Shown piece by piece: positions 9,385 through 24,806 of a DNA stretch of 64,000 nucleotides (position 1 is its first letter; each line of letters begins with the position of its first letter). Source of the DNA: Brevibacterium spongiae (GTDB lineage: Bacteria > Actinomycetota > Actinomycetes > Actinomycetales > Brevibacteriaceae); the NCBI RefSeq assembly GCF_026168515.1, contig NZ_CP093443.1, positions 3,286,001-3,350,000 of the forward strand, given 5' to 3'. Under the pieces are notes generated by a model, which saw nothing but the letters and a program-made list of their open reading frames with translations, had not been told where the DNA came from and did not search any database. Position numbers and translations under genes: made by a program.

Positions 9385-9538
9385 CTGCTGTCTCACTCAC
9401 CCGATCTGTCTGAGGTCAATCACGAGGATACTCAACAATCTCGCTCTGCGACAGGTCAAGATCCTTCGACTCGCGTGTGGCGGTCTCCGGCGGCGGTGCG
9501 GCAAAACCCGGCGGCGGCGACATGGAACGACGGACAGT

Positions 9539-9572
9539 CAACCGCTCATGGCTTCGGGTCGATGAGCGGTTG
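9539..9572. repeat. Perfect 11-bp inverted repeat (hairpin) in a long gap
   Basis: CAACCGCTCAT (9539-9549) is mirrored exactly by ATGAGCGGTTG (9562-9572) around a 12-base loop. There is no following T-run, so it is not a standard terminator. It lies about 155 bases upstream of blaI and about 390 bases upstream of the DUF5134 gene. Confidence 0.6.
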
Positions 9573-9937
9573 CACCATCTGCCGCCTACGATCAAACCAA
9601 TTGTGTTTGGATTAAGGGCAGGCGGGAGGGGCAAACGTCTCCAGGATGCCACGCGCACTCCGTTCGGCTGACTCCTCGAATCTGGCGGCTTGTACTCAAT
9701 GCAGGTTCAGGCGTTCCGGTCGGATTCGCCGGCTGCGCGTTTGGGAGCGCGAGAGTAAAGACCGGGCAGATTTTGCAGCGACTGTCAGGGGAGAATCCGG
9801 AATCGCTTCACAAGAATAGTGAAATGAGCCACTGCGGGACTGCACACCGGGAACGCTCGACAGCATCCTGACAGCACCGCCAGCTGATGCATATCGGCAT
9901 AGTCTCGCTCGACACCCTCCGGCACCATGGCCATAAT

Positions 9938-18697: not shown

Positions 18698-19942
18698 TCA
18701 GTCGCGACCGGAGTTGCGCATCTGCAGGGTCCGCGCGATCCACGACAGCGCCCCGGCAAGCAGCAGCACCAAGGCACAGAGCAGGAACGTCGAAGCCGAA
18801 CCGAGGTAGGTGAAGCCGAGCCCGCCGACGACACCGGCGATGGCCAGCCCGATGTCGAAGTTCATGTTCCACGCGACGCTGGCGCGACTCGGCGTGCTCA
18901 CCGAGGCGAAGGCCATGATGAGGCTCGCCGACTGCATGGTGCCCAGCCCCAGTCCGATGATGATCATCGCCACGAACAGTGTCCCGCCGTAGAAGATCAC
19001 GGCACACACGAGGCCGATCGCGGCCAGCCCAAGGCCGAGGACATTGAGCGCGAAGGGTGGGAAGCTGTCGGCGACGGCGCCTGCGACGAAGCGTCCGATG
19101 ACCGCTGAGACCTGCATGCCGGCGATGAACAGCGCCGGGGCGGCCACCTCCTCGCCGGGTCCGAAGCCGAGGATGATGCCGAAGACGATCATGCCGACGA
19201 GGAATGGGGAGAGCATGAGTACGAGGCTGAGCACCTCTCCGGCCCGACGCCCCGCCCACCGCAGGCTGCGCCGCTCATTGCGCCCCGATCGGATGGCGAG
19301 GTCATCGGCAGCTGTACCGGGATCGGGTGTGCCGGGATCGGGTGCGTCTTCCCGGCGCCGAGGCGACCGCCCGGTCATGAATTTCAGCACCGTCGGGATG
19401 GCGAGGAGGAGACAGGCGCAGACGATGATGCGGAAGGCTGTGATCGGAATGGTGCCCACCAGCCACAGTCCCAGCGGCGCACCGACTGCGGCGGCCAATG
19501 AGGTGATCCCACCGAAGAAGCCGAGCGCCTTGCCGATGCGGCCCGGGGCGGTCGTCGCCGGCACTGCCGCATTGGCGATGACGACGAAGAGCCCGAACCC
19601 GACGCCACCGCAGAGTCCTGCCAGGACGAGGGACAGCAGCGGCGGGGCGACGAGGAGAGCAATGAGCTGGCCGAGGAACTGCAGTGCGATGGCACCCAAC
19701 AGTGCGGCCTTGAACCCGCACACGCGTCCCAGCCAGGGGGCGAAGGGTTGGGCGACGATGACTCCGATCATCATGGTCGTGAGCACCGATCCGCCGGTGA
19801 CCGTCGAGAGCCCGCTGACCGCGGCGATCGAGACCATCGTCGAATAGCTGAAGAAGAACGCGGAGAACCCGAACATCGCCGTCCACACCAGCCCGAGCAG
19901 GGCCGGGGTGTAGGTGCGCTGATGCTGAGGTTCCGGGGTCAT
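18698..19942 (-). CDS. MFS transporter
   Basis: The 414-residue product has about twelve membrane segments. The MFS motif after segment two reads GRVCGFKAALLG, and the two halves are joined by a charged loop, about residues 195-238 (RRREDAPDPGTPDPGTAADD and an Arg-rich stretch) with a short DPGTPDPGT repeat. Substrate is unknown; the pattern fits cyanate/nitrate-like or unassigned MFS proteins. The ATG at 19942 has no ribosome site but has TAACCT exactly six bases upstream on its own strand, so a leaderless transcript is likely. It ends next to the 18539-18675 tandem repeat. Confidence 0.85.
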   Translation of the reverse strand: MTPEPQHQRTYTPALLGLVWTAMFGFSAFFFSYSTMVSIAAVSGLSTVTGGSVLTTMMIGVIVAQPFAPWLGRVCGFKAALLGAIALQFLGQLIALLVAPPLLSLVLAGLCGGVGFGLFVVIANAAVPATTAPGRIGKALGFFGGITSLAAAVGAPLGLWLVGTIPITAFRIIVCACLLLAIPTVLKFMTGRSPRRREDAPDPGTPDPGTAADDLAIRSGRNERRSLRWAGRRAGEVLSLVLMLSPFLVGMIVFGIILGFGPGEEVAAPALFIAGMQVSAVIGRFVAGAVADSFPPFALNVLGLGLAAIGLVCAVIFYGGTLFVAMIIIGLGLGTMQSASLIMAFASVSTPSRASVAWNMNFDIGLAIAGVVGGLGFTYLGSASTFLLCALVLLLAGALSWIARTLQMRNSGRD

Positions 19943-20052
19943 AGTCCGAGGTTACGACATCGGCACTGCACCTGCCGTGCCCGCCCTGATTCCCGCTCAT
20001 TCAGTGCAGCAGAGTTCACCTGCACGTCAGAATCATCGTCTACCATCGGTTC

Positions 20053-20604
20053 ATGAATTCATCGAAGCTCAATCGCGATGCTCCCAGCGGCACCATCGAC
20101 ACCGCATTCGTCCTCAAGTACGAACCGCTCTATGTAGTCACCGACCTCGAGTCCGAGCTCTTCGGCGAGATCGGCCCGAAGACGAAGACCCGCGAATCGT
20201 ACAAACGCAAGCATTTCCTCAAGGTCGCCGAGTGGAAAGCCATCGGTGTCCTGCCCGGTCTCGAAGAGATCGACTCCGACGACATCGAGTTCGTCACCGC
20301 CGTCGCCCTCGACGACGACACTCCCAACCACTTCCGACTGCCGCTGCTCCAGATGCTGCCCGGGGTGGGCACCCCGATGGCGAGCACACTGCTCGCAGTG
20401 GTCAATCCGAAGAAGTTCTCGATCATGGACTCCCGGGCCCTCGGCGTGCTGCATGACTTCAACCTCGTGCCCACGGACAATCCGACGCAGATGGACTACC
20501 GGACCTATCGCAAACTCATGAAGTCCCTGGCCAAAGGCGCCAATTGCGCACCGATCGATCTGTATCGGGCGCTCATCGCCTATTCGCGACAGGACCGGGA
20601 CTGA
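20053..20604 (+). CDS. HhH-GPD-like protein of unknown function
   Basis: The 183-residue product is not a known enzyme by name. Residues about 95-130 (LLQMLPGVGTPMASTLLAVV, then NPKKFSIMDSRAL) have the helix-hairpin-helix LPGVG and downstream VIDxRA-like Asp arrangement found in HhH-GPD DNA glycosylase folds and in their uncharacterised relatives. The catalytic Lys and the iron-sulfur loop are absent, so glycosylase activity is not supported. No membrane segment. TACCAT lies six bases before the ATG, which suggests a leaderless transcript. Its stop abuts the stop of the convergent transposase-like gene: TGA and TCA join as TGATCA with no gap. Confidence 0.6.
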   Translation: MNSSKLNRDAPSGTIDTAFVLKYEPLYVVTDLESELFGEIGPKTKTRESYKRKHFLKVAEWKAIGVLPGLEEIDSDDIEFVTAVALDDDTPNHFRLPLLQMLPGVGTPMASTLLAVVNPKKFSIMDSRALGVLHDFNLVPTDNPTQMDYRTYRKLMKSLAKGANCAPIDLYRALIAYSRQDRD

Positions 20605-21873
20605 TCAGGCAGCCAGCTCCTCGAGACGCTTCTGCCAGAACACGATCTCCTCGGTCAGCCGGGCAGGATCGAGCCCTTCCGCATAGTCGATGAGCTCCGC
20701 TTCCTGTCCCGGCGACATGACTCCCGCGGCGCGCAGCCGGTCGAACGGGGTGCGCGGATCGTCATAGGTGCGCCGGAACCCGCCGCGGCCGTCATCGTCC
20801 CACCCGCTCGGTTTGCGGGTGGGCGTGAAGTAGTTGAGGCGGTCGTCGACGGCCCTCCACAGTTCGTTGAGCGCATGCCTGGCGGCATCCGTGTCATAGC
20901 GACGGATGCTGCCGTATTCGTGGACGAGATGCTGGTGCCGTGAAGCCTCGGGCAGACGGTCCCGCTGGTGGTCCTTGAGGATCGGACTGAAGTGGATATC
21001 GAGGTTCCCCGCCCATCGCCCGACACCCTCGTGGACCGATTCCTCGGCATTGCTCAGTTCGATCGCGTTGACCCAGAAGGGAATCCCCTGAACCTCGTCG
21101 AGCGACCATTCGAGCAGTCCCACCATGTCCGTGGATTCGTTGCCGCCGAGGCTGTGGGTGAAGACCCATCCCGTGTGCAGACAGGTGGCGCTGACGGTGA
21201 ACGCACAGTTGCGCGGCCGAGTCGGCCCCGCGTGAGCGATGGTATCGACGAGGAAGAAGCCGGGCTCAGCTTGGTTGGATCCCGATGCGAATTCGAGGAA
21301 CTCCTCACTGGGATTGTTGAACCGCTTCGTCGAGATGCGACGTTCGTGGAATTCTCCCGCCCGCGTCGTGCTCAGGTACCGGTCGATCGAGGCCGGACTC
21401 ACCGAGAGCAGCTCGGAGCGCACCTCGCTGCTGTATCCGTCGCGGTCGGGCACGAGGGCGCCATGACGCTCAGCCGCCTCGAGCAGCCGCGGCATCGCCG
21501 CAGCCAGGTACTTGCCGCTCTGATGGCCCGACCATTCCCAGATCGTAACCAACAGGGCACGCGATTCTGGTGAGTACCTGCAGCGGCGCGCAGTCCGATC
21601 ACCTGGCGTCGGAGGTCCCGTTGGCGCCTCCTCCGCACCGGAGCCGATCGCGCCCGAATCGACGTGGGCTTCAGCGATCGCCAGCTGTGACAGTCTCCGT
21701 CGCGTATGGTCACGTGACCAGCCGGTGAGGATCATGATCTCGTCGAGGATCCACCCCTTGTCCTTCTTCCTCGCCGAGGAATAGAGATCAAGATAATCAC
21801 GGACATCGACGTCCGCTGAAATATTCATCGGTGCCGAATACGATTGCGTATTCTGCTGATTGTGCATAAACAT
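20605..21873 (-). CDS. Transposase-derived protein (integrase-core family), probably catalytically dead
   Basis: The 422-residue product follows the layout of an actinobacterial integrase-core transposase from end to end. An HTH spans 35-62 (KGWILDEIMILTGWSRDHTR). A helical region has YSPESRALLVTIWEWSGHQSGKYL near 100 and the SPASIDRYL segment near 159. A DDE core follows, then the conserved tail RTYDDPRTPFDRLRAAGV and a closing helix. The first catalytic Asp is kept (FFLVDTIAHAG, D210) and a Glu at 309 aligns with the third residue. The second Asp, normally in a DSDN context, is replaced (IELSN, Ser274). I see no terminal inverted repeats or target duplication. The start at 21873 or ATG at 21867 (AAGG six bases away) is uncertain. 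This looks like an exapted DNA-binding protein. Confidence 0.7.
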   Translation of the reverse strand: MFMHNQQNTQSYSAPMNISADVDVRDYLDLYSSARKKDKGWILDEIMILTGWSRDHTRRRLSQLAIAEAHVDSGAIGSGAEEAPTGPPTPGDRTARRCRYSPESRALLVTIWEWSGHQSGKYLAAAMPRLLEAAERHGALVPDRDGYSSEVRSELLSVSPASIDRYLSTTRAGEFHERRISTKRFNNPSEEFLEFASGSNQAEPGFFLVDTIAHAGPTRPRNCAFTVSATCLHTGWVFTHSLGGNESTDMVGLLEWSLDEVQGIPFWVNAIELSNAEESVHEGVGRWAGNLDIHFSPILKDHQRDRLPEASRHQHLVHEYGSIRRYDTDAARHALNELWRAVDDRLNYFTPTRKPSGWDDDGRGGFRRTYDDPRTPFDRLRAAGVMSPGQEAELIDYAEGLDPARLTEEIVFWQKRLEELAA

Positions 21874-21992
21874 CCTTGTTCATTGACGATTCCGGTCGGC
21901 CACCTCTTTGTTTCGAGCCGACCCGAAATGATCTGAACAATGCTAATGTGGCAATAGGCAGGAGGTCTTCCTAAACGACGGAAGACGCAGTT

Positions 21993-23015
21993 ATGTCACA
22001 GAGTGCAGCACGGCTGCTTGGGCTTTTGTCACTGTTGATGGTGCCCCGCATATGGTCTGGAAATGAACTGGCTGATCGTCTGGGCGTGAGTCCGCGCACC
22101 GTCCGGAGCGATATCGATGCTCTGCGCGAAATCGGCTATTCCATCGAGGGGACCCGCGGTTCCGACGGCGGGTATCGCCTCACCCCGAACGGCTCCACCA
22201 TTCCTCCTCTGCTCCTCAACACCGACGAAGCGGTGGCTGTCGCCGTCGGACTCCATTCGGGGCTGAGCTGCATCATCGGCGGGATGGAGGAGATTTCGGC
22301 TCGAGCGCTGGCGAAGCTCGAGAGCATTCTCCCGGACGCAGTCCGCACCAGGGTGCACAATCTCGCGCATTTCACCGTTCCCCTCGCCGAGAACCAGCCG
22401 GTGCCGATCGTCGAACCCGCACTCATCGTCACACTCATCGACCACTGTCACCGACACGAACGTCTGCGCTTCACTTATCGCAGCGAGGCCTCCGAAGCCA
22501 CAGGCCGCGTCGAGGACGTGCACCTCGAGGTCGAGCCCTATCGGCTCGTCAACAGGCTTCATCGTTGGTACCTGCTCGCGTATGCGCCCGAGGTCGAGGA
22601 GTGGCGGGTCTTTCACGCTGAGCACATCCTGCCGAAGTCACCGAGCGGACCGCGCTTCGACCCGCGGCCGCTTCCTGCCGAGGACATCGGCGACTATGTC
22701 GAACGGCGCGTGCCGGGGTCACGCTGGCGACACTCGGCGCAAGCCATCGTCAATGCCCCGGCCGCCGAGGCGGCGCAGTCGCTGGCACCGGCCGAAGCCA
22801 CGGTCGAAGCCCTCGCAGACAATCGCTGCCTGGTGACCGTCGGCGGGCAGAGTATCGCCACCATGGCCCTGTGTCTGGCACGCCTGGATGTCGATTTCAC
22901 CGTCGTCGACAATCACGAACTCAGCGAATTCCTGCGCCGACTCTCACACAGGCTGGAAAGAGCAGCGTCCGAGGAAGGAATCTCTGACAGCGCTGTTTCG
23001 GCACATTCCGAGTGA
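21993..23015 (+). CDS. HTH-WYL domain transcriptional regulator
   Basis: The 340-residue product starts with a DeoR/HTH_11 winged helix (residues 6-62, with ELADRLGVSPRTVRSDIDALREIGY) followed by the GxDGGYRL wing. The WYL region is at about 145-235: FTYRSEASEATGRVEDVHLEVEPYRLV, then RWYLLAYAPEVEEWRVF, which keeps the WYLLAY form of the Trp-Tyr-Leu motif. A C-terminal WCX-like extension follows. WYL domains bind ligands, often nucleic acid or nucleotides, and regulate DNA-damage and defence genes. The ATG at 21993 has GGAAG nine bases upstream. It is divergent from the transposase-like gene with a shared 119-base, AT-richer gap, so regulation of that gene is plausible. Confidence 0.85.
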   Translation: MSQSAARLLGLLSLLMVPRIWSGNELADRLGVSPRTVRSDIDALREIGYSIEGTRGSDGGYRLTPNGSTIPPLLLNTDEAVAVAVGLHSGLSCIIGGMEEISARALAKLESILPDAVRTRVHNLAHFTVPLAENQPVPIVEPALIVTLIDHCHRHERLRFTYRSEASEATGRVEDVHLEVEPYRLVNRLHRWYLLAYAPEVEEWRVFHAEHILPKSPSGPRFDPRPLPAEDIGDYVERRVPGSRWRHSAQAIVNAPAAEAAQSLAPAEATVEALADNRCLVTVGGQSIATMALCLARLDVDFTVVDNHELSEFLRRLSHRLERAASEEGISDSAVSAHSE

Positions 23016-23245
23016 AAGCCACAATATTCACGCGTCACCATTGTGTGATAATTCAGAATTTCACGGGCACGACACGTGAGTCTCGTTCATTCCTTGAATC
23101 CGTCTAATCGGCGAATGTAGCTTTCCTGGATATGTTTCACCCGCCGATTTCAGCGGCGGCGACCGATTGTTTTCGGCCCCCGCCATTCAAACCGGGCTTG
23201 TCTCCCGGACCACTCATCGCATCCCTCATCGAATGGAGATCATCG

Positions 23246-23725
23246 ATGACCGCACCCGCACGTGCTGACCGTGCCGCGGAGCTCACCGCTCGCATCCGCA
23301 GGACGAACTCGGTCTACGCCCGCGCCTACGGCCCGCTGTCCCTGCTGATCATCGCCGCATCGTTCTTCCCCTACTACTCCCCGGCCGCACAGAGTTCGAC
23401 CACCTACGGCAATCTCTGGCAGGAGGTTCTCCTCACGGGACGCGAGGTCGACGTCTTCGCCCTGTTCGTGCTGCTGTTCACCGTCGGCATGCTCGGTCTG
23501 GCCGCCTTCGCCAGGACGTCGGTGCCCGGCCTCATCGCTGTTCTCACCGGGGCGATCATCATCGGCTGCACGCTCCTGCAGTCACCGGGCTATGTCAGTC
23601 CGCCCGCGCTCACTGTCTTCGGCATCATCGACATCACGCTGGCTTTCCTCGTCGCGGCGATCGCCTTGGCCCATTCGATCCATCTCTTCGTCCTCGACCT
23701 CGGCTTCCAACGTCGGATGGTCTGA
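23246..23725 (+). CDS. Small four-helix membrane protein of unknown function
   Basis: The 159-residue product has a charged N-terminal 30 residues (RADRAAELTARIRRTNSVYAR) and four predicted membrane segments, with a short outside loop FPYYSPAAQSSTTYGNLWQE between the first two. I do not recognise a family. The frame is open upstream, but ATG at 23246 has GGAG nine bases before it and is the supported start. It lies 230 bases after the WYL gene and could share its transcript, but the gap is long. It is convergent with the NUDIX gene. Confidence 0.65.
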   Translation: MTAPARADRAAELTARIRRTNSVYARAYGPLSLLIIAASFFPYYSPAAQSSTTYGNLWQEVLLTGREVDVFALFVLLFTVGMLGLAAFARTSVPGLIAVLTGAIIIGCTLLQSPGYVSPPALTVFGIIDITLAFLVAAIALAHSIHLFVLDLGFQRRMV

Positions 23726-23745
23726 GAGCGCAGATCGTCTCTCCT

Positions 23746-24189
23746 TCAGCCGACCGCCCGGCCGGCGGCGTGCAGAGCCGGAATCACCTCGCTGCGCGTC
23801 AACGGCGCGAACTGGCGGGCGTTCGAATCCGCAGGAAGCGGGTCGATCGGGAACCAGCCGGCTTCGGCGATCTCGGCCAGATGCGCAATGTTCTCGACAT
23901 CGAGCGTCTCCGGCAGCCCGTCGTAGCAGAACACATCGCCGATGACCCGGTGGTCGGCCTCGTTCGCGGCAGCGGCGGTGAAGGTGCCCAGGGCCTGCAG
24001 GCGATCGGGGTGCAGTTCGAGCCCGAGCTCCTCGGCGATCTCTCTGATGATGGTGTCTTCGGCGGATTCCCCGTCCTCGGGTTTGCCGCCGGGAAGCATG
24101 AACGACGTGGTGCCCGACTTGCGGACCATGAGCAGCTCCTCCCGCTCCGGGTGGAGGAGGACGAGCGCGGAGACGCGGATATCGTTCAC
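23746..24189 (-). CDS. NUDIX hydrolase
   Basis: The 147-residue product carries a NUDIX box (GGKPEDGESAEDTIIREIAEELGLEL with the metal-binding EIAEEL, about residues 36-60). NUDIX enzymes hydrolyse nucleoside diphosphates linked to another moiety; the substrate here is not evident. The start is GTG at 24189, whose GTGA overlaps the TGA stop of the upstream tag gene, so the pair is translationally coupled. A much longer frame upstream is open only because it runs antiparallel to nothing and shadows tag; it should not be used as the start. Pairing with a DNA glycosylase is compatible with a sanitising role, by inference. Confidence 0.85.
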   Translation of the reverse strand: MNDIRVSALVLLHPEREELLMVRKSGTTSFMLPGGKPEDGESAEDTIIREIAEELGLELHPDRLQALGTFTAAAANEADHRVIGDVFCYDGLPETLDVENIAHLAEIAEAGWFPIDPLPADSNARQFAPLTRSEVIPALHAAGRAVG

Positions 24190-24806
24190 TGCGACCACAC
24201 CCCTGACGTGCCGCGACGGTGCGAGTCGAGAAGGTGGGTGTCGACCATTCCGATGGCTTCCATGAGCGCGTACATCGTCGTCGGTCCCACGAAGCGGAAT
24301 CCCTTCTTCTTCAGCGCCTTCGACAGTGCCACGGATTCCGGCGAGGTGGTCGGGATCTCGGCGAGGGTTCGAGGGCGTGGAGTCTGTGCGGGTGTGAACG
24401 ACCACAGGAACGCATCGAGGCCTCCGTCGTCACGCAGCTCGATGACGCGTGCGGCGTTGTTGATGCAGGCTTCGATCTTCCCGCGGTGGCGGATGATGCC
24501 GGCGTCGCCGAGCAGCGTGTCGATCTCTGTCTCGCCGAAGCCCGCCACGGTCTCGGGATCGAAACCGGCGAAGACCTCACGGAAGCGCTCCCGCTTCTTC
24601 AGGATCGTCAGCCATGAGAGCCCAGCTTGGAACCCTTCGAGGCTCATCCGCTCGAACAGTCCCGCCTCGTCGTGGATGGGCAGTCCCCATTCGGTGTCGT
24701 AGTAGCTCAAGAGCATCGGGTCGCCGTACGCCCACGGGGTGCGGGCCAGCCCGTCCTCACCGACGACGGCTCCCCCGTCGGCGGCTGACTGTGGTTCTTC
24801 GTCCAT
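24186..24806 (-). CDS. tag: DNA-3-methyladenine glycosylase I
   Basis: The 206-residue product matches Tag: WAYGDPMLLSYYDTEWGLPIHDEAGLFERMSLEGFQAGLSW contains the conserved YHDxEWG-type segment (here YYDTEWG) with the catalytic Glu region and FQAGLSW. The RHRGKIEACINNA helix and FRFVGPTTMYALMEAIGMVDTH follow. The C-terminal zinc-binding His residues of classic Tag are partly kept (DTHLLDSHRRG). It removes 3-methyladenine from DNA. ATG at 24806 has no ribosome site, but TACGGT lies exactly six bases upstream on this strand, which suggests a leaderless start. An in-frame extension would run through the 21-bp tandem repeat and is rejected. Confidence 0.9.
   Translation of the reverse strand: MDEEPQSAADGGAVVGEDGLARTPWAYGDPMLLSYYDTEWGLPIHDEAGLFERMSLEGFQAGLSWLTILKKRERFREVFAGFDPETVAGFGETEIDTLLGDAGIIRHRGKIEACINNAARVIELRDDGGLDAFLWSFTPAQTPRPRTLAEIPTTSPESVALSKALKKKGFRFVGPTTMYALMEAIGMVDTHLLDSHRRGTSGVWSQ

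Follow-up and report, generated by a model that had tools for sequence, protein, structure and literature searches.

A Transposase-Derived Gene Apparently Fixed Beside a Divergent WYL Regulator Gene in Brevibacterium, a Candidate DNA-Binding Regulator

Introduction

Well-documented cases of domesticated DDE transposases exist in eukaryotes, and TldR derives from nuclease-dead TnpB. According to the published descriptions, TldR proteins are RNA-guided transcription factors (PMC13418256), and ALP1 and ALP2 of Arabidopsis are domesticated transposases (PMC7282668). The transposases of the IS1202 family are described as consisting of two N-terminal helix-turn-helix (HTH) bundles, a DDE core, a small beta structure, and C-terminal helices (PMC10132070). 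Family motifs near D and E and a Gln seven residues from E serve as criteria of membership in this family. The literature matches listed comprised eukaryotic cases, papers on insertion sequences (ISs), and RNA-guided TldR; a bacterial domesticated DDE regulator from open-access literature was not among these listed matches, which does not imply its absence from print.

The stretch of DNA analyzed in this study, hereafter the window, spans 64,000 nucleotides of the Brevibacterium spongiae contig NZ_CP093443.1 (positions 3,286,001 to 3,350,000), and coordinates are given within it unless a genome is named. The protein encoded by the following gene and its orthologs are referred to as group A.

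20605 to 21873, minus strand: transposase-like gene, apparently exapted, encoding the group A protein (open frame of 422 codons, 422 amino acids)

Group A is homologous over its full length to the transposases of ISNCY-like ISs. Unlike those elements, it lacks the catalytic triad and is a single-copy gene found mostly at one locus, and terminal repeats were not found. The order of parts in the group A model is like that of the IS1202 family, as compared by the published description, but the latter keeps DDE and terminal inverted repeats (TIRs) according to the same source (PMC10132070). Group A resembles TldR, as far as the description of the latter extends, in being a transposon-type nuclease protein that lost catalysis and, in the case of group A presumably, turned into a regulator. 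TldR, however, is RNA-guided and TnpB-derived, whereas group A goes back to a DDE transposase that combines an RNase H fold with HTH segments. With ALP1 and ALP2, in their published outline, group A would share the loss of transposition and the gain of a host role; group A differs in its bacterial origin and in its apparent link to a single local gene module. The superfamily of ALP1 and ALP2 is presumably also different from that of group A.

Results and Discussion

Ancestry and Copy Number

Searches of Pfam, NCBIfam, PHROGs, and PADLOC yielded no match to the group A protein at the thresholds applied. When compared with actinobacterial DDE transposases by hhalign, it aligned at transposase full length with a probability of 100 over 386 columns and 31% identity. 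The original prediction that the protein resembles a full-length actinobacterial integrase-core transposase was thus borne out by an end-to-end alignment, from the HTH to the YDxPxTPxxRL tail. Eleven IS-type proteins belonging to named genomes were 38–44% identical to the group A protein, and plasmid relatives are annotated as "DDE-type integrase/transposase/recombinase" or "ISNCY family transposase." These alignments point to the transposase of an actinobacterial ISNCY-like IS as the ancestor of the group A gene. Met3 is a possible conserved start of the protein.

The best other match within its own genome shared at most 37% identity with the protein, and the gene is single-copy, as had been expected; near-identical copies with inverted-repeat ends were not seen. 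IS-type ends with the core GTGCCTCA were present in both IS relatives compared, but this core was absent from 18927–24805 at up to one mismatch, and no inverted repeat of at least 11 bases bounding the gene was found in 20400–23900. Both searches agree with the earlier statement that terminal repeats are lacking around the gene. The neighboring genes are intact, as also stated, but not all of them are well spaced, since a convergent gene ending at 20604 directly abuts the transposase-like gene. Overall, the marks of an active ISNCY-like transposase, namely the complete set of DDE columns, TIRs, and several copies or varied sites, were not found for group A.

Other members of the family were observed in the same genome. 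Two identical IS copies with an intact DDE triad (L003 and L004; G000:C1:392636 and 630907) have inverted ends of approximately 30 bases, as judged by eye, with the core GTGCCTCA. Within the window, a degenerate fragment interrupted by an in-frame TGA lies at 9501–9692 on the plus strand; it is similar to the C-terminal part of this transposase family (E value, 9.5e-5) and is probably an IS relic.

Active Site

The catalytic positions of group A were compared with those of 16 aligned IS rows, two of which (L026 and L027) are almost identical; a near-duplicate (L074) and two rows with stops (L077 and L087) were left out of this alignment.

21244 to 21246, minus strand: codon of Asp210, the first catalytic Asp, retained (Asp in 20/20 orthologs and 16/16 IS rows)
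21052 to 21054, minus strand: codon of Ser274, which replaces the second catalytic Asp (alignment of orthologs and IS rows)
20944 to 20946, minus strand: codon of Ala310, aligned with the catalytic Glu of the ISs (profile alignment)

The complete D, D, and E set is present in each of the 16 IS rows. In group A, the presence of D210 and the change of the DxDN motif to I-E-L-S-N with Ser274 were confirmed. The second catalytic column, which is Asp in 16/16 IS rows, contains Ser in 18 of the 20 orthologs, Val in one (L017, codon GTC), and Asp in one (L014, codon GAC). The claim that the third residue is retained as E309 did not hold, as this Glu is not in register: in an ungapped alignment, the catalytic Glu of the IS rows stands opposite Ala310, which is Ala in 20/20 orthologs (A308 in the numbering of one alignment). 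Three gap-free alignments gave this register, with D305, S311, H315, and V317 as anchors common to group A and the ISs. Glu309 is located one position before the catalytic column, where it faces Val or Ile of the ISs, and is Glu in 19 orthologs and Asp in the remaining one. A real one-residue shift at the third position is possible because the structural model is poor at 307–313. The alignments indicate that two of the three catalytic positions are gone, subject to the register at 307–313.

The expectation that every ortholog would lack the second Asp was correct for 19/20. L014 is the exception, yet, with Ala310 in the Glu column, it also has no normal triad; it gave a weak Pfam rve match below the cut-off (E value, 0.031). 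A hand count of changes was equal for an Asp and a Ser ancestor at the second position, and both L014 and L017 have weakly supported places within their clades. Restoration of DDE in most strains was not seen.

Predicted Structure

The AlphaFold2 model had a mean pLDDT of 80, with low confidence at 307–313, and consisted of two helical N-terminal segments, an RNase H–like core, and a C-terminal part.

21652 to 21801, minus strand: first helical (HTH-type) segment, residues 25–74, with a TGWSRDH motif (AlphaFold2 models)
21349 to 21570, minus strand: second helical (HTH-type) segment, residues 102–175 (AlphaFold2 models)
20827 to 21258, minus strand: RNase H/retroviral-integrase-like core, residues 206–349 (structural match of the model)

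The best match of the model to retroviral integrases had a Z score of 11.2 (rmsd, 3.2; 178 residues aligned), and the match to the transposase IstA had a Z score of 10.4 (rmsd, 3.6; 147 aligned). The suggested modeling of the core thus yielded an integrase fold. In VIA, the isolated N-terminal model gave only weak matches, the first two being a TnsB (Z score, 5.1; rmsd, 3.2; 51 aligned) and a Pax-6 paired domain (Z score, 5.1; rmsd, 3.1; 61 aligned). Foldseek found no match to the N-terminal model at an E value of 0.001 or lower, and the sequence search of solved structures returned one match with an E value of 0.88.

Orthologs, Locus, and Selection

Orthologs of the group A gene were identified in 20 of 57 Brevibacterium genomes, including that of the window, and one of them is cut by a contig end. 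The other 19 orthologs share 60–77% identity with the group A protein of the window, and none of the 20 contains an internal stop. The original prediction of a fixed host gene called for orthologs at the same locus, and both flanks were common to 18/20 loci, with what we take to be an MFS-type gene on one side and Nudix-, glycosylase-, and dehydrogenase-type genes on the other. The two non-matching loci are L038, for which a contig end leaves a single side visible, and L043 (genome G041), which is located approximately 60 kb from those flanks.

No member of group A was found outside Brevibacterium among the genomes of the order and in the species-genome scan. Among 396 genomes of the order, 17 matched at an E value of 1e-90 or lower, 14 of which were Brevibacterium. 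Group A scored 741–828 bits, in Brevibacterium only, and the next best score of 361 bits belonged to a three-copy IS. Two peptide patterns searched against 84,980 species genomes gave 21 loci outside the genus with at most 42% identity; the 14 of these that were read look like ISs with the triad (one with a stop).

The dN/dS test across orthologs demonstrated purifying selection, with a median of 0.16 and a maximum of 0.30 for the 112 of 190 pairs having dS of 0.05–1.5 (78/190 pairs fell outside this range and were dropped). Eleven neighboring genes had median dN/dS values of 0.11–0.33, calculated after removal of 14 copies whose match extended past a stop and of every copy with a match covering less than 80%. 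The mean pN within group A was 0.09–0.10 in the HTH, middle, and RNase H parts, 0.12–0.14 in the C-terminal part and at residues 171–200, and 0.44 in the linker at residues 65–93.

Among the ISs, conservation is highest in the RNase H part (identity, 0.74). Between group A and the ISs, its identity falls to 0.35, compared with means of 46% in the first HTH-type segment (residues 22–64, L001 numbering), 51% in the second (residues 96–167), and 0.50 in the C-terminal part; the linker at 168–200 falls furthest, to 0.19. Within group A, the RNase H part has an identity of 0.77. By these values, the RNase H part is the one that diverged most of the folded parts and was then constrained again, which suggests that the catalytic core was remodeled after leaving transposition and is now held.

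Group A may have some metal-dependent activity, since D210 and an acid at residue 272 are invariant. E272, two residues before the second catalytic position, is Glu in 20/20 orthologs and Asp in 16/16 IS rows. A nuclease or strand-processing enzyme with a metal site formed by D210, E272, and perhaps E309 would agree with the conservation of these acids (20/20, 20/20, and Glu in 19/20 with Asp in 1/20, respectively) and with a core as constrained as the HTH parts within the group (mean pN, 0.10 versus 0.09). We nevertheless regard altered catalysis as unlikely: the acid at 272 is invariant in the ISs too and may have a structural role, all 20 orthologs have Ala where the ISs have the catalytic Glu, and the confidence of the model is low at 307–313.

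Two features of an exapted gene were found in group A: orthologs at one locus (18/20) under purifying selection (median, 0.16) and, on sequence grounds, loss of mobility as judged from residues, ends, and copies. An ordinary IS that has recently decayed would account for the clear IS ancestry, but the gene is single-copy with low dN/dS, terminal repeats were not found, the 20 orthologs have no internal stops with 18 at the same place, and the same active-site columns are replaced across the orthologs. Recent decay is thus highly implausible, and an ordinary decayed IS is refuted as far as sequence goes. Synteny, single copy, and purifying selection support the original prediction, and exaptation of a transposase into a fixed host gene in part of Brevibacterium is a well-supported reading.

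WYL/Membrane Module

The genes on both sides of the transposase-like gene were as follows.

21993 to 23015, plus strand: divergent HTH-WYL regulator gene, 340 amino acids (Pfam HTH_11 and WYL)
23246 to 23725, plus strand: small hydrophobic protein gene, 159 amino acids, downstream of the WYL gene (sequence)
20053 to 20604, plus strand: flanking (ogg-like) gene with weak similarity to the HhH DNA glycosylase fold, below Pfam and NCBIfam cut-offs
23746 to 24405, minus strand: flanking gene on the other side, which we take to be Nudix-like, close to the ogg-like gene at most of the examined loci that lack the module

The same divergent WYL gene, with the same small membrane gene beyond it, adjoins the ortholog in 20/20 loci. 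The genomes with the WYL gene (E value of 1e-60 or lower) were precisely the 20 of 57 with the transposase-like gene, a co-occurrence that counts related genomes and not independent events. Long matches to the membrane gene (E value of 1e-48 or lower) were confined to these 20 genomes, with remnants elsewhere. The 159-residue protein had no Pfam match above the cut-off and is a probable membrane protein. Distant paralogs of it (33–45% identity) were observed outside the module at G000:C1:3275001–3275426 and at one locus each in G041, G042, G028, G009, and G032 (partial); these occur only in genomes with the module.

The ogg-like gene, which is outside the module, was present in 34/57 genomes, also in genomes lacking the module. 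Of the 37 genomes without a complete transposase-like gene, 16 were examined at this locus. The ogg-like and Nudix-like genes were 22–217 bases apart in 12 of the 16, and a longer stretch was seen in G044, G046, G004, and G050, although the ogg-like gene was not found in G050. Module remnants were present at four of the 16 loci: G004 has remnants of the transposase-like and membrane genes; G050 has remnants of the transposase-like, secreted, and membrane genes with a weak 11-residue WYL match; and G044 and G003 have the tail of the membrane gene (E values, 3e-6 and 1e-5, respectively). The pattern suggests that the module was lost as a block, probably more than once, and the remnants imply that it was formerly present in more species.

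A fourth gene, secreted-type by sequence, separates the WYL gene from the membrane gene in both L049 and the relocated G041 copy, and the other seven loci of the L049 clade have a gap of approximately 1 kb at this position. The G041 copy is a relocated four-gene module (L043, 9353–12931), and the second catalytic position of its transposase-like protein is occupied by Asp. No IS end repeats were found around this module, only scattered inverted pairs.

WYL regulators are common beside defense genes, and PADLOC WYL models gave matches. These facts, together with the patchy, block-wise absence of the module, would agree with a defense or conflict module in which a WYL sensor, a transposase-derived protein, and a membrane effector act jointly against phages. 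Such a role appears quite unlikely, given that the transposase-like and membrane proteins had no PADLOC match and that the module is located at one place in 18/20 genomes.

Intergenic Region and Proposed Role

The region between the two divergent genes contains an inverted repeat.

21874 to 21992, no strand: intergenic region common to the two divergent genes, 119 bp (alignment of 20 orthologous regions)
21965 to 21986, no strand: inverted repeat GTCTTCC-N8-GGAAGAC before the WYL start codon (perfect in the window)

The repeat lies 6 to 8 bases ahead of the WYL start codon, and six or seven of its seven pairs are kept in 20/20 genomes (G-T counted). A regulon search of its own genome, allowing up to one mismatch, returned the repeat itself and no further site; the reach of any regulation may therefore be local only. 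Taken as RNA, the WYL leader gave a more stable fold than any of 200 shuffles (z = −3.43), for which reason an mRNA hairpin has to be considered as an alternative to an operator. The repeat may be an operator, as a candidate that of the WYL protein itself, or an mRNA hairpin over the ribosome site.

The explanation that we favor, and consider moderately probable, is that group A is an exapted, probably transposition-dead transposase that serves as a DNA-binding regulator of its divergent module. The features retained from the transposase would be the pair of N-terminal helical segments, the integrase fold as a whole, and the C-terminal part. The protein is most likely unable to transpose DNA because it lacks the second catalytic Asp and, as judged from the alignments, also the catalytic Glu. 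It would most likely bind specifically to the 119-bp region between its own gene and the WYL gene, and this binding would set the expression of the module of WYL, membrane-protein, and, where present, secreted-protein genes. The WYL protein may act as the sensor of a signal. In place of catalysis, the present task of the integrase-like core would be assembly, DNA looping, or partner contact. The mycobacterial WYL regulator SiwR is described as controlling adjacent genes (PMC10693628).

The dead transposase could instead bind the ends of related ISs and block their movement. The HTH segments, which are 46–51% identical to the IS rows, and the two identical DDE-intact relatives with inverted-repeat ends in the same genome would suit a transposon silencer. 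Near full-length relatives of 335–361 bits, a band picked after the scores were seen, were present in 4/20 carriers of group A versus 3/37 non-carriers. Carriers are thus not poorer in close ISs, which disfavors silencing, and this role would leave unexplained why the gene is so closely tied to its WYL and membrane neighbors; we consider it very unlikely.

Group B, a Second Transposase-Derived Lineage

A related gene outside the window (L002, context L145; G000:C1:3243667–3244755) is also single-copy and without the DDE triad. This lineage, referred to as group B, gave one match of 35–38% identity in each of 12 genomes, including that of the window; over all comparisons, identity to the group A protein was 33–38%. 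In the alignment of eight of the 12 matches, the first catalytic column is Glu in 8/8, the second is Pro or Ser, and the third is not Glu. Group B is thus like group A in its common ancestry and loss of the triad, but it differs in having Glu in the first column, where group A keeps Asp, and in its neighbor genes. At seven of 11 loci, a phytoene-synthase-type gene (PF00494) adjoins the group B gene, followed by a desaturase-type FAD oxidoreductase gene (PF01593); L147, L150, L151, and L154 lack this arrangement. The dN/dS values of group B were 0.09–0.35 within subgroups and 0.32–0.47 between them, higher than those of group A.

In the rooted tree, groups A and B were sisters with a support of 86/94, at a point where long branches meet, and trees without this join were not rejected (p-AU, 0.36 and 0.32). 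The tree was calculated without L074, L077, L087, L004 and L026 (near-identical), L084 (partial), L155, L159, and L164. Only three columns are common to groups A and B but rare in ISs.

Tentatively, ISNCY-type DDE transposases may have become host regulators at two places in Brevibacterium, forming a class with a dead RNase H transposase core. It is conceivable, at a similarly guarded level, that this occurred once and was followed by duplication, or twice independently, with the WYL/membrane module at one place and carotenoid-type genes at the other.

Conclusion

The same genus offers triad-intact ISs, graded losses of the active site, a genetic partner in the identical genome set, and a second case. 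Several orthologs are present in named culture-collection strains, among them B. iodinum ATCC 49514 and B. sandarakinum DSM 22082, and the route from a bacterial transposase to a regulator is directly testable. If the proposed reading is true, groups A and B would represent a class of bacterial transcription factors, the DDE counterpart of the nuclease-dead TnpB regulators.
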